This document shows, piece after piece, positions 6,534 through 51,188 of a DNA stretch of 51,340 nt. The position numbers and the translations under genes are program-made. The DNA is from a virus, in the IMG/VR virus record IMGVR_UViG_3300044802_000032, positions 1 to 51,340 of that record; one strand, 5' to 3'. Below the pieces are notes generated by a model. The model saw only the letters and a list, made by a program, of their open reading frames with translations, made no database searches and had not been told where the DNA came from. Every line of letters begins with the position of its first letter. Positions within the stretch are counted from its first letter, which is position 1.

Positions 6534-7391
6534 TCAACCCTCCTTTTTCTGTAGGTGTTCCATGATGTTGTCCCAACCTTCTTTCCCGGATTGCCCCATT
6601 TCAATCTCGGCAGGCATTCCGTAACGGTTCTTGGCGTCGAAAGCAGGCGACCACTCGGTACGGAAATATCGACGGCTGGTCTTCACCGCCTTCTGCTTGC
6701 CGGCCTTGTCCTGGCTGTTCTCTTTCGTGAAGATTTCAAACTCAGCCATCAGAACGATGTCCGCCCAGGCAAACGTCGCCTCCCAGGTGGGCTTGCCCTC
6801 GAACTGGGGCACCCACCGATTGTAATCTTCGCCGGTGGGATTCTTGTGGTTGCCCACCCCGGTGTGGGCCAGCAACACGACCATCATCTGCCGTTCCCGC
6901 CGCAGCCGATCCAAGGCCACCAGCAGTTCCTTCCAGATCGACATGGCGACGGCCTTGTAGCCCTCCATGTAGTTCAGGAATCCCTTCTTGGTCATGTTGT
7001 CGTCATAGGCGGTGTGGCAGATGTAGGCGTTGGCCAGCTTCTCCCAGCCACTTATCGTATCCACAACCAGAGTCTTGCGACTGTGCTTGTCGTTGATGAG
7101 CGCCTCGATGGACCCCATCACGCTCTCCCACGTCAGGGTCTCGTAGTTGGGGATCGACTCGGGCACCTGGCCCGCGTCCATCAAAGAGTGCAGGCCGGTC
7201 TCCCCAGGTGATAGCAGGAACACCGGGCTGTCACACGACGCCGCACAAAGCGTCTTTCCCACCCCCTGCCGGCCGTGGATGATGATCCGCGGCGGAAGGT
7301 GAGCACTCCCCTTCATAAAGTCACCAAGCGACACTTTCGTTGCTGCTGGTGTTGCCGCTGTCTGCGTCTGTTCCGGTCCTTTGACCGCCAT
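6534..7391 (-). CDS. Sak4-like RecA-fold ATPase (285 aa)
   Basis: Walker A GRQGVGKT is at residues 40-47 and a Walker B-type strand LVVDTIS at about 108-114. MMVVLLAHTGVGN and the WADIVLMAEFEIF region match phage AAA_24/Sak4 recombinases, which act with an SSB in single-strand annealing. ATG 7391 is preceded by GAAGGAGTTGAAC. The SSB-like gene follows at once, and a nuclease gene precedes it with a 71-base overlap, giving a nuclease-recombinase-SSB recombination set. Confidence 0.85.
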   Translation of the reverse strand: MAVKGPEQTQTAATPAATKVSLGDFMKGSAHLPPRIIIHGRQGVGKTLCAASCDSPVFLLSPGETGLHSLMDAGQVPESIPNYETLTWESVMGSIEALINDKHSRKTLVVDTISGWEKLANAYICHTAYDDNMTKKGFLNYMEGYKAVAMSIWKELLVALDRLRRERQMMVVLLAHTGVGNHKNPTGEDYNRWVPQFEGKPTWEATFAWADIVLMAEFEIFTKENSQDKAGKQKAVKTSRRYFRTEWSPAFDAKNRYGMPAEIEMGQSGKEGWDNIMEHLQKKEG

Positions 7392-8589
7392 GTTCAACTC
7401 CTTCGGGTAATAGGGCTTTCCAAAATGCCTCCAAACCTTGATGGATCAGGGTTCCGATCCTCAACGACTCGGCTTCGTCATCGTCAATGTGCTCCAGGCC
7501 CATTTCGTAACGGTACAGGAATTTTCTTGGGCAGCTCTGGTGCGTCCGAATGCTGGAAAACGTGATCGTGTTGTGGTGGTTGCCCTCCAACTCAGGCAAC
7601 TCTACGTGGACCTGATCGTGGGGAACCCAGTTGGCAGATCCCGCAGTATCAAAACCACTACAGATTCCCAAAAATTGACACGCCCGCCCATAGTTCATGC
7701 AGGAGCCAGGATGCTTGGGCCAGGCAATGCGGGGGTCCCTGCCCTTTCGCTCCAGGTCCCGCTGGATGGCCCGAGCCGCCAGGATCAACTGGCTCGACTG
7801 CCACAGATCTCCAGCGTACTCCATCAGCTCCGCATCGAGCCGAGGAATCGACCGCCGCTGAAAGTAGAACTCTGGACGGCTGGCAATGTCTGCTGACAAC
7901 TTCGCTTCCCACTCTTCGGGGGTTTGCAACCGGGACATGAGGGTGTAGCCCGCCGAGGCATCACCACTTTGCCGCCAATCTCCCAACGTGCATGAGCAAT
8001 CACGGTCATCGTATCCGACACCCAATCCATGGCATGTATCACACGACTTCTTGGCCTTCTTGGGTGCATTCCGTACCCGAATACCATCCTCTCCCAGCAC
8101 GATCTTGAAGCCACGTTCGTCCCGCAATGGAACCTGTTCCGGCCGGATCGTGGGCTTGCGGATCACATCCCACATGGCTCCGTCCATCTTCTCTCCCTGC
8201 AACCACTTCAGCAGCAGGTAATGCGTCGGCTGTGCTTCCACCACCATTTGCCGCCAGAAGGGGCTGGCGGGGTCAACAATGTCCTCGGAGGTAGTCTTGT
8301 GATCCATGACCAGCAAGTGGCCCTTGTCATCCTGCACAACCACGTCGATCTTACCGGCCGTACTCAGAATCCGGCCCTTGGCCCCCGTCTCCGGGTTCAC
8401 CACGGCCGCCTTGATCGTCGTCTCCACCTCAGTGGGTACCAGCTTCCAATGCTGCCATCTTGCCGCGTACCCGATCAGCAGGGCCCGGCACGTCGCCACC
8501 CGCAACAGGTCCGGTTGTTCCTGATTGGGTACCGATGCCGCGTCTATCGCATCCAGCGCCGCCTGGAGTGGTGCGCTACTTGTCTCCAC
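7321..8589 (-). CDS. PD-(D/E)XK (RecB/Cas4-like) nuclease, circularly permuted (422 aa)
   Basis: GTG 8589 follows AAAAAGGAGACGATCA. Motif order: GKIDVVV (Asp82) at 79-85, MDHKTT (Asp96, Lys98) at 95-100, a CDTCHGLG...CSC zinc-knuckle-like insert at 183-200, the cluster C297-x6-C304-x5-C310, and only then TFSSIRTHQSCPRKFLYRYE (342-361) and GTLIHQGLEAFW (379-390). In AddB/Cas4-like proteins the CPRKF and GxxxH elements come first. Here the first part has moved to the C-terminus, next to the other three cysteines that would bind an Fe-S cluster. The expected role is DNA end resection for the Sak4/SSB system. Confidence 0.85.
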   Translation of the reverse strand: METSSAPLQAALDAIDAASVPNQEQPDLLRVATCRALLIGYAARWQHWKLVPTEVETTIKAAVVNPETGAKGRILSTAGKIDVVVQDDKGHLLVMDHKTTSEDIVDPASPFWRQMVVEAQPTHYLLLKWLQGEKMDGAMWDVIRKPTIRPEQVPLRDERGFKIVLGEDGIRVRNAPKKAKKSCDTCHGLGVGYDDRDCSCTLGDWRQSGDASAGYTLMSRLQTPEEWEAKLSADIASRPEFYFQRRSIPRLDAELMEYAGDLWQSSQLILAARAIQRDLERKGRDPRIAWPKHPGSCMNYGRACQFLGICSGFDTAGSANWVPHDQVHVELPELEGNHHNTITFSSIRTHQSCPRKFLYRYEMGLEHIDDDEAESLRIGTLIHQGLEAFWKALLPEGVEHGGQRTGTDADSGNTSSNESVAW

Positions 8590-8814: not shown

Positions 8815-8992
8815 CCCAGACCTGGACATGGACCTGGACATGGACCAGGACGCGGACAAGGACCCGGACCCGGACCCGGACCTGGACCTGGACCCGGACC
8901 AGGACCAGGACCTGGACCTGGACCTGGACCCGGACCAGGACCAGGACCTGGACCTGGACCCGGACCAGGACCAGGACCTGGACCTGGACCAA
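8815..8992 (+). repeat. GGACCN hexamer array, 28 GGA triplets at 6-nt spacing
   Basis: From about 8822 the + strand reads GGACNN without interruption, mainly GGACCT, GGACCC and GGACCA, with a higher-order unit of about 30 bases repeated near the right end. Read rightward the RNA would have 28 GGA motifs, several as ACCAGGA or ACAAGGA, which is like CsrA recognition sites. Read leftward it would be the leader of csrA with AGGUCC units. Every unit also contains a GGACC site. No promoter for a rightward transcript is obvious. Confidence 0.9.
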
Positions 8993-9025
8993 CCAGTTCG
9001 CATGATGGCTGCGTTCATGGCAAAA

Positions 9026-9318
9026 TTATTTCTGCGAAACAGGCAGCCGATGCTCCCAGACAGCAGCGTCGATGATTGCACAGCGATTCAGAATCACGCT
9101 TCCGGGCATCGGCTCTATTTCGCGCGCAGGCCGGTTTTGAACATATCCGCGAACCGTCCGGTATCCGCAATCCACGCCGCTTCCTCGATCAGCAGTTCGT
9201 TGCCATCCACGGCGACAAGCCGTCCGGTGTAATAATGTGTCACCGTTCGGATCAGGTAACTCTGCCCAATCTCCCACAACCCAACCATCTGCTTCGCTGC
9301 TTCTTTTGCTTTCGCCAC
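9026..9318 (-). pseudogene. Frameshifted conserved phage protein (VTHYYTGR...IADTGRFAD)
   Basis: The first frame encodes GQSYLIRTVTHYYTGRLVAV, then EEAAWIADTGRFADMFKTG, and stops at 9115. The second frame continues with EIEPMPGSVILNRCAIIDAA and VWEHRLPVSQK to 9026. Together they form one continuous small phage protein family, so a frameshift lies near 9125. The DNA there is GCCTGCGCGCGAAATAG. Removing one GC pair from the GCGCGC run restores the frame as TGLREIEPMP. This may be a real mutation, a sequencing error or a slippery switch. GTG 9318 has AGGAG seven bases upstream; ATG 9324 is too close to it. Confidence 0.75.
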
Positions 9319-16467: not shown

Positions 16468-17394
16468 TCAGTTCTCCGTGAAAGTGATCGTGTAAGATCC
16501 AGCAGAAGGAATCGTCAACGTGCCGGCATTCATCTGACGGAAGGGCCCCGTCTTCAAGCTGACTGACAGGGGACCTGCCACCAAGGATACCGGGCCCAGC
16601 ACCAGTTGCGACGGCACCGGCGGCGGCGGATTCGGAATCGGCGGCTGGCCAGTGAACTCGGCCCAGGCTTCCTGGAGACCGTCCAGGTTGAATCCGTCGA
16701 ACGTCTGGCCAGTGGCCGGGTTGATGAGATCCTGATCCCGGTACCGGGCCCAGGCTTCTCCACAGCACTTCGAGATCCACGCCGGGGTGACCCACAGCAC
16801 TTCGCCCCAGGTGACCAACTTGAAAGCTCCGTCTGCCCGGCGACCTGCCAGGCCCACGCAATGGTCAATCGAACCGGCCCGCCGTGGGGCGTCGATCAGT
16901 TGGCCAGCCGAGGCATTCATCAGGCTGGCCGAGCTGACACCCAGCTTCAGCCACTTGAAGTAGTACAGGGCTTTGGCGAAACCATCCAAATCCAGGGGAT
17001 TGACGGTTCCATAGGGACCGCAGGGGTGACGCTTGCCGGTTGGGTCCTTCAGTCCATTGGCCGCCTCCCATGCCAAGTCCGTTCCCAGATCCAAGCCGGT
17101 ATCGGAGCCGCCGGTCTCGGTAAAATAGTCATCCCGAACCTCAGCGTCGGACACGATGATGGGTTTTCGGGTCGCACCATAGGTGACGCCGAGTAAGTAA
17201 TTCGCGTCACATGCTTTGACACAATCACCCAGCGACTCGTTCAGGAACATCTGAAACGAGTTGCAACCGTTCGTGCCGTCGAATACAGCCGGCGGCGGGG
17301 TGAGATTGCGAAGATGAAAGCCCATCGGCATCGCATTCCCCAACAGCAGCGGATGGGACGCACGGGCACCAGTCTTGCGGATTGTAGTAGTCAA
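16468..17394 (-). CDS. Putative papain-like cysteine peptidase with C-terminal beta domain (308 aa)
   Basis: The segment FLNESLGDCVKACDANYLLG resembles the catalytic Cys region of papain-fold peptidases (GDC). SIDHCVGLAGRRADGAFKLV then TWGEVLWVTPAW resembles the His and Trp-Gly part. After a proline linker (PPIPNPPPPVPS) a C-terminal beta-rich domain ends SYTITFTEN. TTG 17394 overlaps the previous stop and has GGGAGAAGCTCC upstream. It could cut a host peptide or peptidoglycan bridge during entry or lysis. Assignment is by motif only. Confidence 0.55.
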   Translation of the reverse strand: MTTTIRKTGARASHPLLLGNAMPMGFHLRNLTPPPAVFDGTNGCNSFQMFLNESLGDCVKACDANYLLGVTYGATRKPIIVSDAEVRDDYFTETGGSDTGLDLGTDLAWEAANGLKDPTGKRHPCGPYGTVNPLDLDGFAKALYYFKWLKLGVSSASLMNASAGQLIDAPRRAGSIDHCVGLAGRRADGAFKLVTWGEVLWVTPAWISKCCGEAWARYRDQDLINPATGQTFDGFNLDGLQEAWAEFTGQPPIPNPPPPVPSQLVLGPVSLVAGPLSVSLKTGPFRQMNAGTLTIPSAGSYTITFTEN

Positions 17395-18113
17395 GGAGCT
17401 TCTCCCTGTTCGAGCTTGAATTGCTTGGTGTCATCCAGCCACTTCTTCAGGATGTCAAACGACTGCATCCCGGTAATCCGGTTGGTCTCCTTGCCGTCCA
17501 TCAACATAATGAACGTCGGCAGCAGAGTGGGCTTCCACTTGTCTTGAGCCGTGGCGTCCACATCGCAGTCAACGCGGGTAATCGAGTACCCGGCCGCCTT
17601 GAGCTTTGCCAACACCGGCTCCATCAGGTTGCAGGCCCCGCAGGTAGTACGGGATACCTCCATCAGGACCACTGTGCCTGTCGGCTTCGGTGGATCGACT
17701 GGAGGCACCGGGGGATTCACTGGCGGGGTCGGCGGCGTCACCGGCGTTGGGATCGGGTACAGCTTCGCCAGCACCGCAGCAAGCGTGGCGGCGTCCTGGG
17801 TGAGCTTCGCTTGGGCCTGTACCGTAGCAGTCTGGGCGGTGGCGATCTGCGTCTGCACGCTCGCCAGGGCCGTCTGTGCGGCCGTCGTCTGGGCCTGGGC
17901 CTGGGCAACGGCCATCTTGTCAGCCTCGCAGGCGGCGATCGCAGCCAACAGGTCGGCCGGGATGGGGGCCGGATCAGCCGTCTTGACGACCACCTTCGTG
18001 GTCTGCGGAGCCAGCGGCGGGGAGAACAGCGGAACCGGACAGCATTTGCTCCCCGGCGGGCAGCAGGGGGCAACAGCAAACGCCGTCGCCAGTAGAACGA
18101 GTAGTAAGTGCAT
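17391..18113 (-). CDS. Secreted coiled-coil thioredoxin-like protein (240 aa)
   Basis: The N-terminal 15 residues (MHLLLVLLATAFAVA) form a signal peptide followed by CC, which could be a lipoprotein-type site. Residues 58-118 form an Ala/Gln-rich coiled coil. A proline linker (PTPPVNPPVPPVDPP) leads to a thioredoxin fold with active site CGAC (158-161) and cis-Pro in LLPTF. ATG follows CAGGAGGACTTTCG. It may shuffle disulfides of envelope or virion proteins during lysis or maturation. An exported phage thioredoxin of this design is uncommon. Confidence 0.72.
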   Translation of the reverse strand: MHLLLVLLATAFAVAPCCPPGSKCCPVPLFSPPLAPQTTKVVVKTADPAPIPADLLAAIAACEADKMAVAQAQAQTTAAQTALASVQTQIATAQTATVQAQAKLTQDAATLAAVLAKLYPIPTPVTPPTPPVNPPVPPVDPPKPTGTVVLMEVSRTTCGACNLMEPVLAKLKAAGYSITRVDCDVDATAQDKWKPTLLPTFIMLMDGKETNRITGMQSFDILKKWLDDTKQFKLEQGEAP

Positions 18114-18123
18114 CGAAAGTCCT

Positions 18124-18167
18124 CCTGAAAAAGCCCCCGGGCAGCCGGCACCCGCGGGCTGCCGGCC
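18124..18167 (-). terminator. Leftward terminator upstream of the thioredoxin-like gene
   Basis: On the minus strand CCGGCAGCC pairs with GGCTGCC(C)GG, with one bulged base, followed by GGGGGCTTTTT. It lies just before the AGGAGG site of the 18113 gene. It would reduce expression of the last four late genes unless transcription reads through or restarts. Confidence 0.65.
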
Positions 18168-18189
18168 ACCCAGGAGGAGACACCCGAAA

Positions 18190-18465
18190 TCAGATGCCGA
18201 AGAACGCGAACAGTTGCAGCAGCCCGGCCAGGATGGCGGGGCCATTGGCCATCACCCACTTGAGAATCGCCATCCAGTCGATGGCCCCAACGATCTCGCC
18301 GTTGGCCTGCTCATAGGAGTACAAGCAAGCGTGCTCGACAATCGCAGCCAACCGGGGATGCTTCAACATCCCAGCCGCGATCTTCGCACACTCGCCATTA
18401 TCCTTGCCCAGGGCGGCAAACGCCGCTTGGCAGTTCAACCCAGCCGACACGTTCTCGATACTCAT
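18190..18465 (-). CDS. Hypothetical protein with hydrophobic C-terminus (91 aa)
   Basis: ATG 18465 follows CTGGAGGATTGTGTG. The N-terminal part contains LNCQAAFAALGKDNGECAKI and the C-terminal 25 residues (ILKWVMANGPAILAGLLQLF) form a likely membrane anchor. It follows the agmatine-deiminase-like gene directly. Function is unknown. Confidence 0.6.
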   Translation of the reverse strand: MSIENVSAGLNCQAAFAALGKDNGECAKIAAGMLKHPRLAAIVEHACLYSYEQANGEIVGAIDWMAILKWVMANGPAILAGLLQLFAFFGI

Positions 18466-18492: not shown

Positions 18493-19353
18493 CTAAAGAC
18501 GGTACTGAGCCGTCACACATCGTAAAAGACCACCTTCCATCGACAGGTCACTGCACGGGATCAGGTGGACATCCGCGTCGGCGATATGCTCACGCAACTT
18601 GCACTCCGTACAGGCATCCTCACTGACTCCGAACGCTGGTGCGAGGGCCAGATTGCCGATCCTCAGATAGTTGATACTGTACCCGTATCCCGGGTTGTAG
18701 TCATCAGCAAATGGGTAGCGGATGCGGAACTCAGCCTTACTCAGATGCACGCAGCGGTGGTAGGCGTTGGGGAACGATACTGTCGTCAGTCCCTCCCCAT
18801 GCAGGATCTTCTTCAGGTTGGCGGTGTAGCCCTTCATGGCCGGATCATGGTAGTTGTTGACGAACACCGTATGGGCATCAGCGAAAGCCACGATACCATC
18901 GGCGTGCCCCAACGTGTCGTCAGGCTCTACCGGCAACGGGATGATCTCACCCTCCAGCAGCGTCTCCAGGTGATCCAGCAGGGCCATCCGGTCCGTGCCG
19001 GGATTGTCCAGGAACACCTGTTCCGTCATCAGGATGGTGGACCCGTGCCGTACGATGTTGCCGCCGTCCAGAACAATGGGGCTCATCCGAACACCATGGA
19101 ACAACGACCGCCAGGTACATTCAGGTACCACCAACTGCGGGTACCGTTCAAAGTCCTTCCGATAGGTGAACTTGATGAATCCCTTGTTGACTTGAACGGG
19201 CATCCAATCCCTGAGCCAGATGTTGCGGCAGTCGTAGACGTTGCGCACCGTGATCCCCGCCATTGAGAGCGCGGATAGCATTGGCCCGTAAGTCTCGGGG
19301 TACCGCACCAGCGCGGCGGGAACGAACACGATGTTGTCGAGGGTGTCGGTCAT
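18493..19353 (-). CDS. Agmatine deiminase / peptidyl-arginine-deiminase-like enzyme (286 aa)
   Basis: Family motifs appear in order: NIWLRDWMP (residues 44-52), LDGGNIV (95-101), DDTLGHADGIVAF (145-157, with catalytic His150) and a C-terminal EGGLLRCVT with the nucleophile Cys279. The usual HC pair is RC here. Known relatives convert agmatine to N-carbamoylputrescine or deiminate arginine. ATG 19353 follows AGGATAGACTCC. At 286 residues it is shorter than typical agmatine deiminases (about 340-370). It is one of two guanidino-modifying homologues in this operon. Substrate is not known. Confidence 0.8.
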   Translation of the reverse strand: MTDTLDNIVFVPAALVRYPETYGPMLSALSMAGITVRNVYDCRNIWLRDWMPVQVNKGFIKFTYRKDFERYPQLVVPECTWRSLFHGVRMSPIVLDGGNIVRHGSTILMTEQVFLDNPGTDRMALLDHLETLLEGEIIPLPVEPDDTLGHADGIVAFADAHTVFVNNYHDPAMKGYTANLKKILHGEGLTTVSFPNAYHRCVHLSKAEFRIRYPFADDYNPGYGYSINYLRIGNLALAPAFGVSEDACTECKLREHIADADVHLIPCSDLSMEGGLLRCVTAQYRL

Positions 19354-19363
19354 GGAGTCTATC

Positions 19364-19537
19364 CTAGATGCAAAAGGTTACTGAACCGATCAATGCGAAG
19401 GCGAGCATCAGCAACACCAGTATGGCCCCCATAGAGCACAAGAACACGCCCTGAATTCCTCCCTCAATGATGCGCTGCTGCCACTCCGGACGTTGAAAGT
19501 ATCGCTCCCAACTCCGTATCCACCGTGTTCTAGACAT
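19364..19537 (-). CDS. Single-span membrane protein (57 aa)
   Basis: Start ATG 19537 after GGACGAGCAAATC. The N-terminus is basic and aromatic (MSRTRWIRSWERYFQRPEWQ) and residues about 33-55 are hydrophobic (GVFLCSMGAILVLLMLAFAL). It lies between the decarboxylase-like and the deiminase-like genes and could anchor or couple them at the membrane (inference). No family is recognised. Confidence 0.55.
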   Translation of the reverse strand: MSRTRWIRSWERYFQRPEWQQRIIEGGIQGVFLCSMGAILVLLMLAFALIGSVTFCI

Positions 19538-19555
19538 GATTTGCTCGTCCAATCA

Positions 19556-20272
19556 TCATAGGGCCTCCACTCGGACAATCGCGTCCACTCCCGCTTCAAC
19601 GTGATCGCTCACCTTGCAGCAGGGCCGGAAGCGGTAGCGGGAGTCCAGGGGGAGGATGGTTACAACCATCGATCCCCAGCGGATCATGCCAAACCGTTGG
19701 CTCTGGTTCAGGGTCACTGTCCGCCCCTCTCGAAACGGAACGATGCAATCAACGTCCTGGTCGGCAATCTGGACAAGGAAATACCAGTATTTCAGGTACG
19801 GGCAAAAGCACTTGTTTACGACGCGCTGGTTGTCCCGCATGAACTCCATCCCGCCGGCCACCTTGCCTTTGTTCAGGATATTCCGCTCCACAAAAAGCAT
19901 AGGAACTTGCCGAGTCTTGAGCGGCGGCAGCGGAAACCTCGTCATGGTGCAATCACTAGCGGCACGGTTGACGTGAACGTCAGCAAACGACATGAACGTG
20001 GCGCTGACCAAGGCCGGCTTGTCGATGGACTGCTGATGGCCCAGCAAGTCGTTGACGCTACACTGAGCCCCCTTCACGTCGAATAGATCCTCGTCGGGTG
20101 TGAATCGTCCTTGCGTCGTTATGACCCCATCTGCGGAGGCCATAAAGACATCCCGATTGCAACGCAGCGGCCGGGGTGGATCTCGGAAGAACGCGGAATG
20201 TGCAGCCGTTTTCAGAGAGAGCTTCTGAAACTCTTCCACATCAGTGGCCAGCCATTCATCGAGACTCTTCAT
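19556..20272 (-). CDS. Phosphatidylserine decarboxylase-like protein (238 aa)
   Basis: Motifs of the short PSD type appear in order: FFRDPPRP (28-35), ASADG (45-49), SATFMSFADVHVNRAA (90-105, with the catalytic His) and FGMIRWGSMVVTILP (194-208). Ser201 of WGSM is the expected self-cleavage and pyruvoyl residue, where family members usually have FGSR or GST. The product would convert phosphatidylserine to phosphatidylethanolamine in the membrane, or act on a related amine. ATG follows TAGGTGATCC. Eight bases separate it from the DDAH-like gene, indicating one transcript. Confidence 0.8.
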   Translation of the reverse strand: MKSLDEWLATDVEEFQKLSLKTAAHSAFFRDPPRPLRCNRDVFMASADGVITTQGRFTPDEDLFDVKGAQCSVNDLLGHQQSIDKPALVSATFMSFADVHVNRAASDCTMTRFPLPPLKTRQVPMLFVERNILNKGKVAGGMEFMRDNQRVVNKCFCPYLKYWYFLVQIADQDVDCIVPFREGRTVTLNQSQRFGMIRWGSMVVTILPLDSRYRFRPCCKVSDHVEAGVDAIVRVEAL

Positions 20273-20279
20273 GGATCAC

Positions 20280-21269
20280 CTAGACAACAGGCTGAGAAAA
20301 CGCGGCGCGTGTCATGTGAAGCACGCAGCACGAAAGGCAAGCCCCACTCTTCTCAAATTCCGACAGATTGACGGGAACGAATTCAAGTCCATTCTGAACG
20401 GCGACCTTCTCCAGAAACTTCTCCTTCTCCATGTCCTCTTCCCAATCCTCGGACCCACGCTTGTGCTCTGGCAAGGAACTGTCACAGAGAAGGAGGTTCA
20501 CCGTTCGGACGCAATTCGTGGCACCCGCGAACTCCAGCTTCTTCGGGACCGGGATGATCTCCATGTGCTTCTCGATCTGGGCAATCTCCTCCTTGCTCAT
20601 CTGCGTTGTGGCAGCAATCACCTTCTCGGGTGTAAGGGGGCACAGGACGGTATCTAGGTGATAGTTTCGCTCATCACGCATCTCGATGCTGATGACCTTG
20701 CAGCCGAACTGCTTCTCAAACCACTGATGGGTTGCCTTTTCTGTTCTGATTCCGTGCGCCATACAGTACACATCGTCGATCAGATGCTTGCAGTCGGCCT
20801 CACCCTCAAAATGAGTGGGTGGTCGGTGCACTTCATACTCGCACAGCTCGAAGAACGTCTTGGCCGCCTTGTCTTCGCCTTTCCTCGGAGGGCTCTTGTA
20901 GTTGGCCACAACCACGATGGGCTTTGGTTTGTGCAGCAAAACTACGGCCACGTTTGCGACATAGATCCGATCAGGATAGTCCCCTGAGCACGGGAGCACA
21001 TAGACCAAGCTGGATTCACTGGAAAGCCAGTTGTACAACCCTCCCCATTGCTGCCGTGCTTTGTCGAAGTCCTCCTCAATTTCTTCCGGTGTCAGAGCCC
21101 ACATCCAATCGTTGTTGGGATCTGCGCAGTCCCAAGTGTGTGGGTACGCCATCATGTACACAGGCTGATCCAGGAGCGATGGATTCTCGATCTTGACATT
21201 CGCATCCGGCTTCTTCTGCGGGTTGCTGGTGGCCTGCTTGGGCTTGATGAGCGGTTTCTTATCGGGCAT
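20280..21269 (-). CDS. DDAH / amidinotransferase-like guanidino-modifying enzyme (329 aa)
   Basis: The region DRIYVANVAVVL (100-111), SPPRKGED (126-133), HFEGEAD (153-159), MAHGIRTEK (170-178), NYHLDTVLCPL (202-212) and SEFEKSGACLSC (303-314) follows the pentein-fold order of dimethylargininases and arginine deiminases. His204 and Cys314 are the expected catalytic residues. The N-terminal 35 residues are lysine/proline-rich and probably unstructured. ATG 21269 lies in the end of the giant internal-protein gene (11-base overlap) and follows GAGGTAACGTCA. Substrate is unknown. Confidence 0.78.
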   Translation of the reverse strand: MPDKKPLIKPKQATSNPQKKPDANVKIENPSLLDQPVYMMAYPHTWDCADPNNDWMWALTPEEIEEDFDKARQQWGGLYNWLSSESSLVYVLPCSGDYPDRIYVANVAVVLLHKPKPIVVVANYKSPPRKGEDKAAKTFFELCEYEVHRPPTHFEGEADCKHLIDDVYCMAHGIRTEKATHQWFEKQFGCKVISIEMRDERNYHLDTVLCPLTPEKVIAATTQMSKEEIAQIEKHMEIIPVPKKLEFAGATNCVRTVNLLLCDSSLPEHKRGSEDWEEDMEKEKFLEKVAVQNGLEFVPVNLSEFEKSGACLSCCVLHMTRAAFSQPVV

Positions 21270-28770: not shown

Positions 28771-31074
28771 CTACCTGAGTGGCCCACCTTTCCGCGTCTG
28801 CACCCGGATCGCTTCCATCGCCCAGCCGGTACCGGCAGATACCAAGATCCCAATCGCCCCACCACGGCAATGGGGGTACGAGCGGTGGTTGAAGCCGGCC
28901 GGCCATGTCCCACCGCTCACCGAGACCAGCGACGGGATGGCCGCCACGATCTGCTGGGCCGTGTCCCCCACGAACAGCCGGTAGTTGGCCGCCGTCGATG
29001 CGCTGTCCAAGTCGGCCGCCAGGCTCATTAGGACGCCCTCGTAGCCCGGGCCCCCAATCCGCACCGGGCCATACACCACCTCGGCCATGAAAGCCACACC
29101 GTCGTCACTGGTGGCCGCCAAGTCAAAGGTACGGGCATACCCGTCCAGGTCCCCCAGGATCGTTATCACCGGGGTAGCCGGCCCGGGGCTGTACCGGATC
29201 ATCGCCGTTGCCTGCATCGCCAACGGGAACACCTGGGGCCAGAACGAGCTGCCCACCCAGTCCACGAAGTAGTGGGTGCCCGTGGCGGTAATCACCACCT
29301 GGGACACCGGGCTTGCCCCCGTGCCCGCCGTCGCCTGCAAGAGCACGTTGCCCGAGGCGTCCGTCACCGTAGTGGTGACCGGGATCGCACCCATGGTGCA
29401 GGTAATGACCTGGCCAGCTACCAGGAATAGCGGCAACGTGTTGTCCTGTCCACCGGAACCAGGGCCCCTGGCCTCCACCGAATACCACCCGGTGACCGGG
29501 GCGGTGAAAGTCCCCGTGCTAGCAATCGTTGTCACCGTCGCTGCCAAGGGCGTCACCGAAATGTGAATCCCTCTGGCCTCGGTGTCGTAGCACAGGGTTA
29601 CGGTATTGTTCAGCCGATCCACCTGGAGCAACTCCTGGGGCAGCGTCGGCCGTGATAGCGGTTGCGGATACGACTGCCCGCCCGGGGCCACCTGATACAG
29701 CCCATCCCGTGATAGCACCACCAGGGAGCTGTCAGGCAGCCGACACCAGGCGTTGGGGCCCAAAACGCCAATCTCCCGGGACAAGGCCGTGATCGTGCCA
29801 CCATAGGCGGGATCGGCCGTCAACAGCCACATGGACCGCTCGCAGCCGAAGATCAGGTAGTCGTCCGAGTGCGGGATCAGCGCCGTCAGGTTGTCGGGGA
29901 TGCCCCCCGCCGTTGTCGCATTGCCCGCTACCGCCCGGCTGGCGTCGTTGGGGTCGTATCCGTAGTCCCAGTCGTTGGGGTCCAGAACCCGACTCATGTA
30001 CCAGATCGGCCCGGGCTGCCCGGCCAGCACCAGCCGCCCCCGATAGGTGCAGCACAGCGGGCAGTTCAGCGGCGGGATGCCGTAGTACAGGCTCGTCCAA
30101 GAGAGGGTATACGACACATTCGTCCGGTCGGCATCGGTCGTGGTGTCGTCCAGGGTAAGTGTCGTGGTCCCCCGTGTCCCCACGGCCACCAAGTACTGCG
30201 AGGTTCCAATCCCCGAGACGTTGGGGATCGTCAGGGTGAGCATGGAATCACTCGATGCCTGGGGCACCGCCGCCCAACTCCCACCCGTCAAGGTCGCCAC
30301 TCCAGCAGCTATCGTCACCAGCCCCACGTTGTAGTGGGCTGCCGGGATCGGGAAGCTGCCCATCAAGGAGGTCAACGCCGCGGCCGGCCGGGCAGGGTCG
30401 AACACCTTGGGAACTCGTCCAATCTGCCAGGTGACCCCGCTGGCCTGATCGGTCATAGCCCCCGTGAACGTGATGTAGCTACCATCCGCGGCCACGCTCG
30501 TGATGGGGAAGATGTTCGATTCCAAGTCCACCAGCCCGGAGATCCACACAACGTCGAGTGTCAGGTCGATGTTCAGGGTTCGCCAATCCGTGATAACCCC
30601 ACTGTGATCGGAAAGCCGATTCGTGCCGGAAATGGCTCCATCCAATCCCGTCAGGTTCGGCGTCCGGTAGTCAGCGATGTAGTACAGGGGCCCCACCTGA
30701 GTCCCCTGCAACTGTGGAGCATCTGGGTTAAGACTCCCAGTCGTCTGAGTCAAATGCCCAGGGTTGCTGGTGTTCTGATAGAACTTCCCATCACTGACAG
30801 CCACCAGCACGTTCCGCGAAACCCCATCGCTTCCGATGTACCCCGCAGATCCCAGGAGTTGAAAGGGCAGGCCCCCGCCCAACTGCTCGGCATACGCCTT
30901 GCTGATCGCTGGCCGGGAGCCGCCCCGTTGACGAGTGGCCAGGGGGTCAAATGGACGGCAATTGACCGTGTACGGGGTCGCGTAAGGCTTGCCCGTGGCA
31001 ATTTGGAAGCCCACATTGCGCACGAGCCCGCCTATCGGGAACATCAGCTCGATCACTCGTGACTGGACTGGCAT
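28771..31074 (-). CDS. Large beta-rich tail protein, nozzle-type candidate (767 aa)
   Basis: ATG 31074 follows GAGAGGAGACCGAC. The start FPIGGLVRNVGFQIATGKPY...NCRPFDPLATRQRGGSRPAI is typical of large phage tail proteins that begin by recalling all gene parameters (the RPFDP...RGGSRP motif). The rest is a long series of beta strands with LICGCERSMWLL-like and PDSSLVVLSRDGLYQVAPGG propeller-type segments. By size and neighbours it may be the tail nozzle or tubular protein B analogue. This is inference. Confidence 0.68.
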   Translation of the reverse strand: MPVQSRVIELMFPIGGLVRNVGFQIATGKPYATPYTVNCRPFDPLATRQRGGSRPAISKAYAEQLGGGLPFQLLGSAGYIGSDGVSRNVLVAVSDGKFYQNTSNPGHLTQTTGSLNPDAPQLQGTQVGPLYYIADYRTPNLTGLDGAISGTNRLSDHSGVITDWRTLNIDLTLDVVWISGLVDLESNIFPITSVAADGSYITFTGAMTDQASGVTWQIGRVPKVFDPARPAAALTSLMGSFPIPAAHYNVGLVTIAAGVATLTGGSWAAVPQASSDSMLTLTIPNVSGIGTSQYLVAVGTRGTTTLTLDDTTTDADRTNVSYTLSWTSLYYGIPPLNCPLCCTYRGRLVLAGQPGPIWYMSRVLDPNDWDYGYDPNDASRAVAGNATTAGGIPDNLTALIPHSDDYLIFGCERSMWLLTADPAYGGTITALSREIGVLGPNAWCRLPDSSLVVLSRDGLYQVAPGGQSYPQPLSRPTLPQELLQVDRLNNTVTLCYDTEARGIHISVTPLAATVTTIASTGTFTAPVTGWYSVEARGPGSGGQDNTLPLFLVAGQVITCTMGAIPVTTTVTDASGNVLLQATAGTGASPVSQVVITATGTHYFVDWVGSSFWPQVFPLAMQATAMIRYSPGPATPVITILGDLDGYARTFDLAATSDDGVAFMAEVVYGPVRIGGPGYEGVLMSLAADLDSASTAANYRLFVGDTAQQIVAAIPSLVSVSGGTWPAGFNHRSYPHCRGGAIGILVSAGTGWAMEAIRVQTRKGGPLR

Positions 31075-44451: not shown

Positions 44452-46404
44452 CTACCAGACCTCCGATCCCATTGCTGGGGCCCCCAGAAGATCGTTCAGA
44501 GAGAAGCCTTCACCGCCCGAGTCGTCGTCATCCCGCATCCGATCCGACTGCCGAAGGGCCTCACGTTGTCGCCAGGCCGGCGATCCGTAGGGAGGATTCT
44601 GACTTTTCTCTTCCTCGTTGTCAAGTCCACCCGACCGATCCAGGCACCCCATGATAGCTACCCCACCGGCCACGCACCGGTCTCCGTGGCCCTTCTCACT
44701 CTCCCCCGCATCCTTCGTCGGCTTGTGAACAACCTTCCCATCTTCCCACTCATATTCCCCGCACTCCCGCAAGTATTCCTCCGACCGCGGAATGAATCGA
44801 CCGTCCTCCATCGCAATGCAGGCCGCTTCGAACAGATCACCCTTGGCCTGCTCGGTCCCGTTCCACCAGCCCGGTTTCTTCGTCTTCTTCCTCGATCCTA
44901 CAATGTCCGCATCCCGGTAGTACACGTTCGAATAGTGCAGCACATCCAGCACCTCCTTACCGAAACTCTGCCCCGTCGGCCCGGTGGCTTCCCAGATCAG
45001 ATAGCAATCGTAAAGCCATTTGGCCAAAGCAGTTGAGAGCCGGGCGAACTTCGTCGCCATCGAGCCCATCACCGTGTACTCCAACACCTGGCACCCACTC
45101 TGCTTGTCGATCCCGAAGGCCACCGAATTGCTGGAGTAGTTCCCCGTCCCCCCCGCTGAAATGTCGCACCCCAGAACGTAGTCGCTCCGCGGCGGCTTCC
45201 GGCCCAGCCCAGGCTCGAACCACAGCTTCAAGGGGCCCCCCTCCCGCTGAATCAGCCCGGTCACCTCCAAGGTCTCGGCGTCGTACACCACGTTCCCTTG
45301 GAACACCGGCGGCCGGACATGCTCAGCCCGCATCTTGTCCAGGATCGCCACGTCGAATACTTTTCCCACCGACCCCCTCGGGTTGCGGTCCAACTCCTGA
45401 GCAATGGATCTCGGCGTAGCCCGCGGCCGAAGGCACTGGGCATCGTACCAAGGCGACCGGATCATACCCTCCATCGGGTGTCCACGTCGCTCGATCTTCT
45501 TCAGGTCCTCGGCGTGCTCCTTCGAGTACACCATGATCTTGTGGTGGTCCTTCATGTCCAGCGGAACCAGCTTCCCAGCGCACACCTTGTACATCAGCCG
45601 GTTCTGCGTCGGGTTGTCCTTCCAGTCCAGGATGATCTTCACCGCGCTTGAGTTTTCATCCTTCGACATCTGGTAAAACACGCCCGTGTCGCCCTTGTGC
45701 GTGCTCACAAACACCCGGCAATTTGATACGTGCTGTGTGCTATCCATCGCCGCATCGATCTCATTCGGCTTGAACTTCGCCACCTCGTCGAAGCCGAACA
45801 CCGTCTTTCTTCCACCAGATGCCACGTCGCCCGTCGCCGAGTACCCCACGATGGAACTCTCTATCTCCTGGTTGAAGAAGTAATGTTCAGTCGTACTCCG
45901 CTTGTAATGCGGCTTCATCCAGAATGGCAGCCGATCTATCATCCAGTCGATCTTCCACATCAACGTGTCGCTGTCCACCAGCGAATCCACCAATCCCTCG
46001 TTGCGCGTCACCAGCCCCGCCGAGAACATCGGATCTCGAAGCCACCGCCGCAGGAACACCATCAGGTACATCCAGGTCGCTCCCTGCGCCCGTGACTTGT
46101 CCACCACCACGTCAATCGGCGTCTCGCGCTTCTCGCTGTCCGTGATCGCCTGATCCATCACCACAATCGGATGGTCTTGATGGCTCCACGTTGAAAAAGG
46201 TTTCACCTTAATCAGGGCCCGCGGCTCGAACACAAAACAGAATGCGTTGAACCAGAAAAGAACATCCGCGAATGCCGCCTCCCGCAACCCCCGCTGAAAA
46301 CCCACGTCTTTCGCCGCCAACTGCCGCAACTTGATCCGCCAGCGAAGATTCTTCGCAGGATCTTTCGGTACTCGATCTATGAACGGACAACCCGTCTCGA
46401 TCAT
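44452..46404 (-). CDS. terL: Terminase large subunit (650 aa)
   Basis: The ATPase part has a variant Walker A, KSRAQGATW (103-111), and Walker B VFGFDE (202-207). The nuclease part has GCDISAGGTGNYSSN (Asp414), LIWEATGP (Glu472) and KGHGDRCVAGG near the end. This is the order of RNase-H-type terminase nucleases. The ATG overlaps the small terminase stop (ATGA). It drives DNA packaging with the portal. At 650 residues it is somewhat long. Confidence 0.92.
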   Translation of the reverse strand: MIETGCPFIDRVPKDPAKNLRWRIKLRQLAAKDVGFQRGLREAAFADVLFWFNAFCFVFEPRALIKVKPFSTWSHQDHPIVVMDQAITDSEKRETPIDVVVDKSRAQGATWMYLMVFLRRWLRDPMFSAGLVTRNEGLVDSLVDSDTLMWKIDWMIDRLPFWMKPHYKRSTTEHYFFNQEIESSIVGYSATGDVASGGRKTVFGFDEVAKFKPNEIDAAMDSTQHVSNCRVFVSTHKGDTGVFYQMSKDENSSAVKIILDWKDNPTQNRLMYKVCAGKLVPLDMKDHHKIMVYSKEHAEDLKKIERRGHPMEGMIRSPWYDAQCLRPRATPRSIAQELDRNPRGSVGKVFDVAILDKMRAEHVRPPVFQGNVVYDAETLEVTGLIQREGGPLKLWFEPGLGRKPPRSDYVLGCDISAGGTGNYSSNSVAFGIDKQSGCQVLEYTVMGSMATKFARLSTALAKWLYDCYLIWEATGPTGQSFGKEVLDVLHYSNVYYRDADIVGSRKKTKKPGWWNGTEQAKGDLFEAACIAMEDGRFIPRSEEYLRECGEYEWEDGKVVHKPTKDAGESEKGHGDRCVAGGVAIMGCLDRSGGLDNEEEKSQNPPYGSPAWRQREALRQSDRMRDDDDSGGEGFSLNDLLGAPAMGSEVW

Positions 46405-50594: not shown

Positions 50595-50624
50595 AGCTTG
50601 CACCCCCACCCCAAAGGAGAAACC

Positions 50625-51188
50625 ATGCTCACAAAAGAACAAATCCTAACCGCGACGAAAGCAGAAATCGACGCCGCCTACCAGAAGCTGATTGCAGCCA
50701 AGCCTAATGCCGACTGCTCCGACTGCTCCGACTGCTACGGCTGCTACGACTGCTACGGCTGCTCCCGATGCTCCGACTGCTCCGGCTGCTCCCGCTGCTC
50801 CGCCTGCTCCGACTGCTCCGGCTGCTCCCGCTGCTCCGCCTGCTCCCGCTGCTCCGACTGCTCCGACTGCTCCGACTGCTCCCGCTGCTCCGACTGCTCC
50901 GACTGCTACGGCTGCTCCGACTGCTCCGCCTGCTCCCGCTGCTCCGCCTGCTCCGACTGCTCCGGCTGCTCCGACTGCTCCGACTGCTCCCGCTGCTCCG
51001 ACTGCTACGGCTGCTACGGCTGCTCCGACTGCTCCGACTGCTCCGACTGCTCCGACTGCTACGACTGCTACGGCTGCTCCCGATGCTCCGACTGCTACGG
51101 CTGCTCCGGCTTGCGGTATGCAATCCTCGGCATCGAATTTACCAAGGACGAGTACGAGGCTTTTCTGCTACGGATGCAAACCGCATAA
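50625..51188 (+). CDS. Cysteine-triplet repeat protein, copy 2 (187 aa)
   Basis: ATG 50625 follows CAAAGGAGAAACC. It has the same head (30 residues) and tail (25 residues) as the gene at 11, but 44 tripeptides of C-S/Y-D/G/R/A in a different order. Copies of short blocks (for example CSGCSRCSACSD) recur, which suggests growth by unequal exchange. The gene is followed by a CCACCACC run and then by the start of copy 1 across the circle junction. It is probably a thiol-rich protein, role unknown. Confidence 0.85.
   Translation: MLTKEQILTATKAEIDAAYQKLIAAKPNADCSDCSDCYGCYDCYGCSRCSDCSGCSRCSACSDCSGCSRCSACSRCSDCSDCSDCSRCSDCSDCYGCSDCSACSRCSACSDCSGCSDCSDCSRCSDCYGCYGCSDCSDCSDCSDCYDCYGCSRCSDCYGCSGLRYAILGIEFTKDEYEAFLLRMQTA

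Follow-up and report, generated by a model that had tools for sequence, protein, structure and literature searches.

A paired arginine dihydrolase relative and phosphatidylserine decarboxylase-fold enzyme in phages and bacteria: a predicted route from arginine to putrescine

What would a phage gain from a guanidino-modifying enzyme encoded next to a relative of phosphatidylserine decarboxylase (PSD)? The question is raised by IMG/VR virus record IMGVR_UViG_3300044802_000032, the whole of which (51,340 bases) forms the window analysed here. In this window, a pentein-enzyme gene (gene A) and a PSD-family gene (gene B) head a tight cassette of the order A-B-C-D, with 8 bases separating the end of A from the start of B. 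An earlier sequence-only reading had proposed that the cassette changes polyamines or arginine together with membrane lipid head groups. All four of its open reading frames (ORFs) are present on the minus strand (Table 1), with family matches well beyond chance for A, B, and D, and the third-position GC of A, B, and D is consistent with real genes. The polyamine and arginine part of the proposal is supported by the proximity of A to arginine dihydrolase and by the bacterial neighbours of the pair, while the lipid part is disfavoured. We predict that A and B probably constitute a two-enzyme route from arginine to putrescine that operates during infection; of the readings in which both enzymes act, A followed by B in series is the simplest.

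Families and catalytic residues of genes A and B

Gene A matched the eukaryotic-type DDAH model PF19420 (5.8e-8) and phrog_12759 (3e-38) in the family libraries, and among the NCBIfam models the mycobacterial dimethylargininase (2e-28) ranked slightly above arginine dihydrolase (1e-24). Comparison of a gene A profile with solved structures gave AgrE/ArgZ at 1.4e-25 and DDAH at 7e-5, and a wider profile that included the bacterial A proteins gave 1.7e-37 and 3e-6, respectively. The first 13 PDB matches (Foldseek) of the AlphaFold2 (AF2) model of A, which has a predicted local distance difference test (pLDDT) score of 90, were all ArgZ/AgrE. The model matched the ArgZ domain with an E value of about 1e-21 and a TM-score of 0.88, followed by DDAH at 2.5e-14, with SxtG and AGAT lower. 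Since the PDB comparisons place ArgZ/AgrE clearly nearer than DDAH, SxtG, or AGAT, a dimethylargininase or an amidinotransferase is not the best assignment for A; of the earlier label "DDAH/amidinotransferase-like", the pentein fold and the catalytic residues are retained and the placement is not.

Sequence alignment showed that N53, N106, R129, and R175 of A correspond to Asn22, Asn71, Arg90, and Arg139 of AgrE. Residues N53, N106, R129, H204, and C314 are present in 35/35 A sequences, and R175 is present in 33/35. In ArgZ, Asn71 determines whether two hydrolysis steps take place or one, and in DDAH-type enzymes the two arginines hold the alpha-carboxylate. The N71S variant of ArgZ, altered at the residue equivalent to N106 of A, has been solved as a trapped intermediate (PDB 6juz). 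The roles given to these residues in A are read from PDB titles, alignments, and background on related enzymes. The pentein fold, the catalytic Cys/His, and the equivalents of Asn22/Asn71 and Arg90/Arg139 are thus common to A, ArgZ (Sll1336), and AgrE (Alr4995), whereas A is a single-domain protein that lacks an ornithine cyclodeaminase domain, is approximately 24% identical over the structural alignment, and is coupled to B. Judged by sequence, predicted fold, and diagnostic residues, gene A is closest to the cyanobacterial arginine dihydrolase.

Two divergent viral A homologues (L033:9778-10698 and L034:198-1097) do not carry R175, and no B was found with either of them; they may act on another substrate. 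These are the only two of the 35 A homologues without R175, and the absence of this residue coincides with the absence of a B match.

Gene B matched PF02666 (PS_Dcarbxylase, 1.3e-21) and phrog_12670 (2.5e-28). Among solved structures, its AF2 model (pLDDT 87) resembles only the E. coli PSD (E value of 4.6e-6, TM-score of 0.5), and the matches of B are limited to PSD models and PSD structures, with no match to the S-adenosylmethionine decarboxylase (AdoMetDC) fold (PF02675). D48, H100, and G200-S201 are invariant, with S201 present in 45/45 sequences, so that self-cleavage to a pyruvoyl enzyme is expected. The description of B as short-type PSD-like is therefore borne out by its fold, its Asp/His/Ser residues, and its Gly-Ser site, and S201, like H204 and C314 of A, is kept in wide alignments as the sequence-only reading had supposed. 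B shares the fold, the DxH motif, and the Gly-Ser self-cleavage site with the short archaetidylserine-type PSD (E. coli, 7cnw/6l06); it differs from this enzyme in an Ile-Ala-Asp that replaces the canonical Val-Gly-Ala region, in E129, D171, and Q190, and in having A as its constant companion.

The residues that set B apart are largely conserved within its clade. E129 is present in 47/47 sequences of one alignment and in 44/45 of another, where the remaining sequence has Asp. Comparison with seven cleanly readable housekeeping PSDs from B-carrying genomes, a small sample that includes one wrong row (L249), revealed that D171 occurs in all B-clade rows at a position where the PSDs have Ala or Gly, and that the PSDs have Ser, Ala, or Lys at the E129 position. 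D173, N102, N122, Q190, and Q202 are also typical of the B clade. When four housekeeping PSDs serve as the outgroup of the tree, B forms a separate group (support 97), indicating, at the sequence level, a PSD paralogue in a distinct clade. The new acidic residues E129 and D171 would suit a cationic substrate.

Coupling of A and B in viruses and bacteria

The viral census was made by short-motif scans with 80 loci retained per scan, and its counts are lower bounds and not frequencies. The scan of viral contigs with B alone yielded 202 relatives; among the 80 retained, A lies beside B in 75, and the other five begin at a contig edge. The scan with A yielded 243 relatives, and all 12 viral records searched with A carry A. 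After merging identical sequences, and with B found independently, A and B are neighbours in at least 121 distinct viral sequences. The exceptions are the Campylobacter phages, in which the two genes are apart, contig ends, L032, in which they lie on opposite strands, and L033/L034, which have no B. In a tblastn search of phage records, the hits for A and those for B fell into the same two groups: about 40 phages of Campylobacter and six of Bacteroides. The two genes are adjacent in Bacteroides phage DAC19 and far apart in Campylobacter phage CPX, and the Campylobacter phages retain both despite the wide spacing. In the Campylobacter phages (Fletchervirus), the homologues are the genes annotated as "amidinotransferase" and "phosphatidylserine decarboxylase", while in DAC19 and the related Bacteroides phages they are annotated as hypothetical; in the records and papers searched, they were never joined as one pathway.

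A single scan of bacterial genomes with B identified 38 loci in Latescibacterota, Verrucomicrobiota, Campylobacterota, Pseudomonadota, Actinomycetota, and others. A adjoins B in 36 of them, usually in the order B-A. A is present in all 23 searchable B-carrying genomes, in one of them at a non-adjacent position, and Streptoalloteichus carries two A and two B genes, with the members of each pair close together. The pairing in these loci and genomes indicates that the coupling is independent of phage gene order. The distances among A and among B sequences correlate (r=0.92), as expected if the two genes are inherited together. At one locus (L239:9986-10554), a MATE fragment comes directly after a partial B and A is missing in between, pointing to a decayed or misassembled locus.

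The bacterial pairs have recurring neighbours. A MATE exporter lies near B-A in 22/38 loci. Its gene follows the pair immediately, in the same orientation, in Latescibacterota, Sulfurimonas-type bacteria, Sedimenticola, Thioalkalivibrio, and some Actinomycetota, and is on the opposite strand in Verrucomicrobiales; Xenorhabdus and Photorhabdus have an ABC exporter instead. Ten Verrucomicrobiales loci encode a PotD-like spermidine/putrescine-binding protein (4.8e-53, under its equivalog cut-off), followed in eight of the ten by a hybrid histidine kinase. In L225 (11742-17168), L216, L219, L220, L227, L235, L236, and L237, the pair is followed by the MATE exporter, the PotD-like protein, and a dCache-domain hybrid histidine kinase. 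From its gene content, the Verrucomicrobiales locus looks like a cluster for making, exporting, and sensing a polyamine. Beside the pair in two Xenorhabdus, aminobutyraldehyde dehydrogenase and gamma-aminobutyrate (GABA) transaminase score over their cut-offs; these are the usual steps from putrescine to GABA. No SpeA over its cut-off and no strong ornithine, lysine, or arginine decarboxylase was found in eight Verrucomicrobiales genomes, with one borderline case (G014), and all eight carry LysA.

Taken together, A and B form a conserved unit. The observations comprise enzyme families with fitting folds, retained catalytic residues, a neighbourhood conserved through near-universal A-B coupling, and polyamine-related neighbours in bacteria. 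None of the outcomes named beforehand as refuting the sequence-only reading was obtained.

The predicted route and its alternatives

The substrates, flow direction, and use of putrescine are inferred as follows. A would hydrolyse L-arginine to L-ornithine, two NH3, and CO2, as ArgZ/AgrE do. B would cut itself at Gly200-Ser201 to form the pyruvoyl group and would then decarboxylate ornithine to putrescine. No AdoMetDC-type genes and no spermidine synthase were found in 20 A-B phage records, so that putrescine itself would be the end product in phages. In the window, the ORF immediately before A encodes 1439 aa and ends a run of large same-strand ORFs; because this run extends down to A, the cassette closes the structural-gene cluster. 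In the main T4-like group, the pair is flanked by genes that we take to encode the major head protein and PhoH, named by our own reading of the sequences; this again appears to be the structural region. Since A and B are downstream of structural genes, their product would appear late, a placement that would suit DNA packaging or translation: putrescine could supply counter-ions for packaged DNA or serve translation at its peak.

Polyamine supply by phage enzymes has precedents. Pyruvoyl enzymes with the AdoMetDC fold that decarboxylate ornithine or arginine are encoded by phages, in which no arginase was detected (PMC9992855); the same change of pyruvoyl enzymes to ornithine and arginine decarboxylases has taken place in bacteria (PMC10407285), and a Pseudomonas phage that increases putrescine gets through infection more quickly (PMC11898732). 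Like those AdoMetDC-derived enzymes, B would be a pyruvoyl decarboxylase found in both phages and bacteria with a presumed role in putrescine supply, but B has a different fold, and those enzymes have no ornithine-making partner. The different fold and the built-in ornithine source would be what is new here. We lean toward regarding A and B as a widespread, undescribed pathway that phages share with many bacterial phyla and for which the PSD fold was converted into a pyruvoyl ornithine decarboxylase. No description of the pair was found in the full-text papers searched; most subscription journals and preprints were outside the search, and novelty is not proven.

Several observations weigh against the arginine-to-putrescine route. 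Gene A scores 86.9 bits, and the bacterial A proteins up to 106, against the NCBIfam arginine dihydrolase equivalog cut-off of 450, and the best score of B is 59.7 bits against a curated PSD equivalog cut-off of 183, so that both are far below the equivalogs. The GABA genes near B-A are limited to the two Xenorhabdus, and an exporter would be just as fitting for another secreted amine. Several other B-carrying bacteria already possess SpeA or an ornithine decarboxylase, and the pair is thus not only a gap-filler. As for the end use, spermidine synthase over its cut-off was found in none of the 17 genomes checked, as in the A-B phages.

The alternative that survives best, though we regard it as unlikely, is the reverse order, in which B would convert arginine to agmatine and A, together with gene D, would strip the guanidino group to give putrescine or N-carbamoylputrescine. 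Pyruvoyl enzymes have evolved into both arginine and ornithine decarboxylases (PMC9992855, PMC10407285), and D resembles agmatine deiminases. D matches PF04371 (9.8e-21), and its closest PDB structures are the agmatine deiminases of C. jejuni and H. pylori. H150, D152, and C279 of D are invariant (7/7 for H150 and C279, the residues named in the sequence-only reading), while the Glu of the EGG motif is replaced by Asp96; the score of D is 32.6 bits against the NCBIfam agmatine deiminase equivalog cut-off of 483. Against the reverse order, A keeps the equivalents of the AgrE residues R90 and R139, whose counterparts in DDAH-type enzymes hold an alpha-carboxylate that agmatine does not have, and neither the bacterial loci nor most of the A-B phages contain D. 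Of the three-gene neighbourhood whose conservation the sequence-only reading had named as a check, the A-B pair holds up and D is confined to a subset of phages. In the 19 loci found with D, it is mostly beside A-B and in some cases separates A from B; it lies some 9 kb away in two phages (L188/L012 and L195/L011), and in L201 and L202 D homologues occur on viral contigs with no A or B in the stretch examined. D is an accessory gene of a subset of A-B phages and may act as a side branch, on agmatine or arginine. One record labelled "Bacteriophage sp." (L003) looks like a Bacteroidales mobile element and was not used as phage evidence for D; its D-like domain (6972-8516) is fused to a larger N-terminal region, and the record contains conjugation-like genes and a group II intron-type reverse transcriptase.

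Also improbable, and next in rank, is that the pair in bacteria makes a different exported compound, an arginine-derived amine or natural product, and that phages use it. MATE or ABC exporters are the commonest third gene, and makers of natural products, such as Saccharothrix and Xenorhabdus, are among the hosts; however, no recurring biosynthetic genes lie beside the pair, phages have A-B without an exporter, and the PotD-like protein and the putrescine-to-GABA genes point to polyamines.

We give little credence to B being a true PSD that alters the membranes of infected cells, with A as a separate arginine enzyme beside it. The PSD fold and the intact catalytic residues fit such a role, but B is obligately paired with A across phyla, has its clade-specific acidic residues, and coexists with a second, normal housekeeping PSD in 19/23 B-carrying bacterial genomes. 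No lipid genes adjoin the pair, save for an isolated fatty-acid desaturase in one locus (L216). With an arginine enzyme as the partner of B, the lipid head-group role suggested by the sequence-only reading is disfavoured.

Phages whose DNA bears amino acids or putrescine are known. Modification of a base or a virion protein by these enzymes, such as the attachment or trimming of an amine on phage DNA, is nevertheless highly improbable: the Campylobacter phages do have modified DNA (PMC6884629), but the bacterial chromosomal pairs have exporters and no DNA-modification genes, and no base-modification gene was recognised among ten other window proteins compared with PHROGs, on which ground DNA hypermodification was rejected.

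Genome setting and meaning of the pair

The features of the cassette are given in Table 1. No relatives of gene C were found in the family libraries searched, and C may be unrelated to the enzyme genes.

Table 1. Positions of the cassette genes and a possible terminator in the 51,340-base window
Feature	Position	Strand	Description
Gene A	20280-21269	-	329 aa; pentein enzyme closest to arginine dihydrolase (ArgZ/AgrE N-terminal domain)
Gene B	19556-20272	-	238 aa; PSD-family pyruvoyl enzyme, separate clade
Gene C	19364-19552	-	62 aa from TTG, 57 aa from internal ATG; one hydrophobic segment
Gene D	18493-19353	-	286 aa; agmatine-deiminase/PAD-type pentein
Possible intrinsic terminator, end of D	18498-18514	-	weak, consensus only

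The PHROGs search of the ten other window proteins identified a terminase-like protein (44452-46404) and, as a weak match, a head-closure protein (28771-31074). The lysis-like genes that had been placed next to the cassette were not borne out: the sole lysis match was a spanin profile at E=0.44. A defence-system reading was also set aside, as PADLOC gave no match for A-D. Downstream of the cassette, 17391-18245 encodes a protein with a C-terminal thioredoxin domain (1e-8). A plus-strand ORF at 8828-9232 with long Asp-Leu/Asp-Pro/Asp-Gln repeats is probably a simple repeat and not a gene. Near-copies of one gene with CSDCYGC-type repeats occupy both ends of the record (11-511 and 50598-51188), suggesting terminal repeats or a circular or complete genome, and the window is therefore probably a complete genome.

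If the predicted route is correct, hundreds of phage genes labelled as lipid decarboxylase, amidinotransferase, or hypothetical would belong to one polyamine pathway, together with similar genes in several bacterial phyla, and the pair may be the missing putrescine source in Verrucomicrobiales. The route would explain where phages without arginase obtain ornithine and would add a further protein fold to the putrescine-making enzymes. It would also provide phages with a self-contained polyamine supply for late infection, opening to test the old question of whether the counter-ions of packaged DNA are made by the phages themselves.

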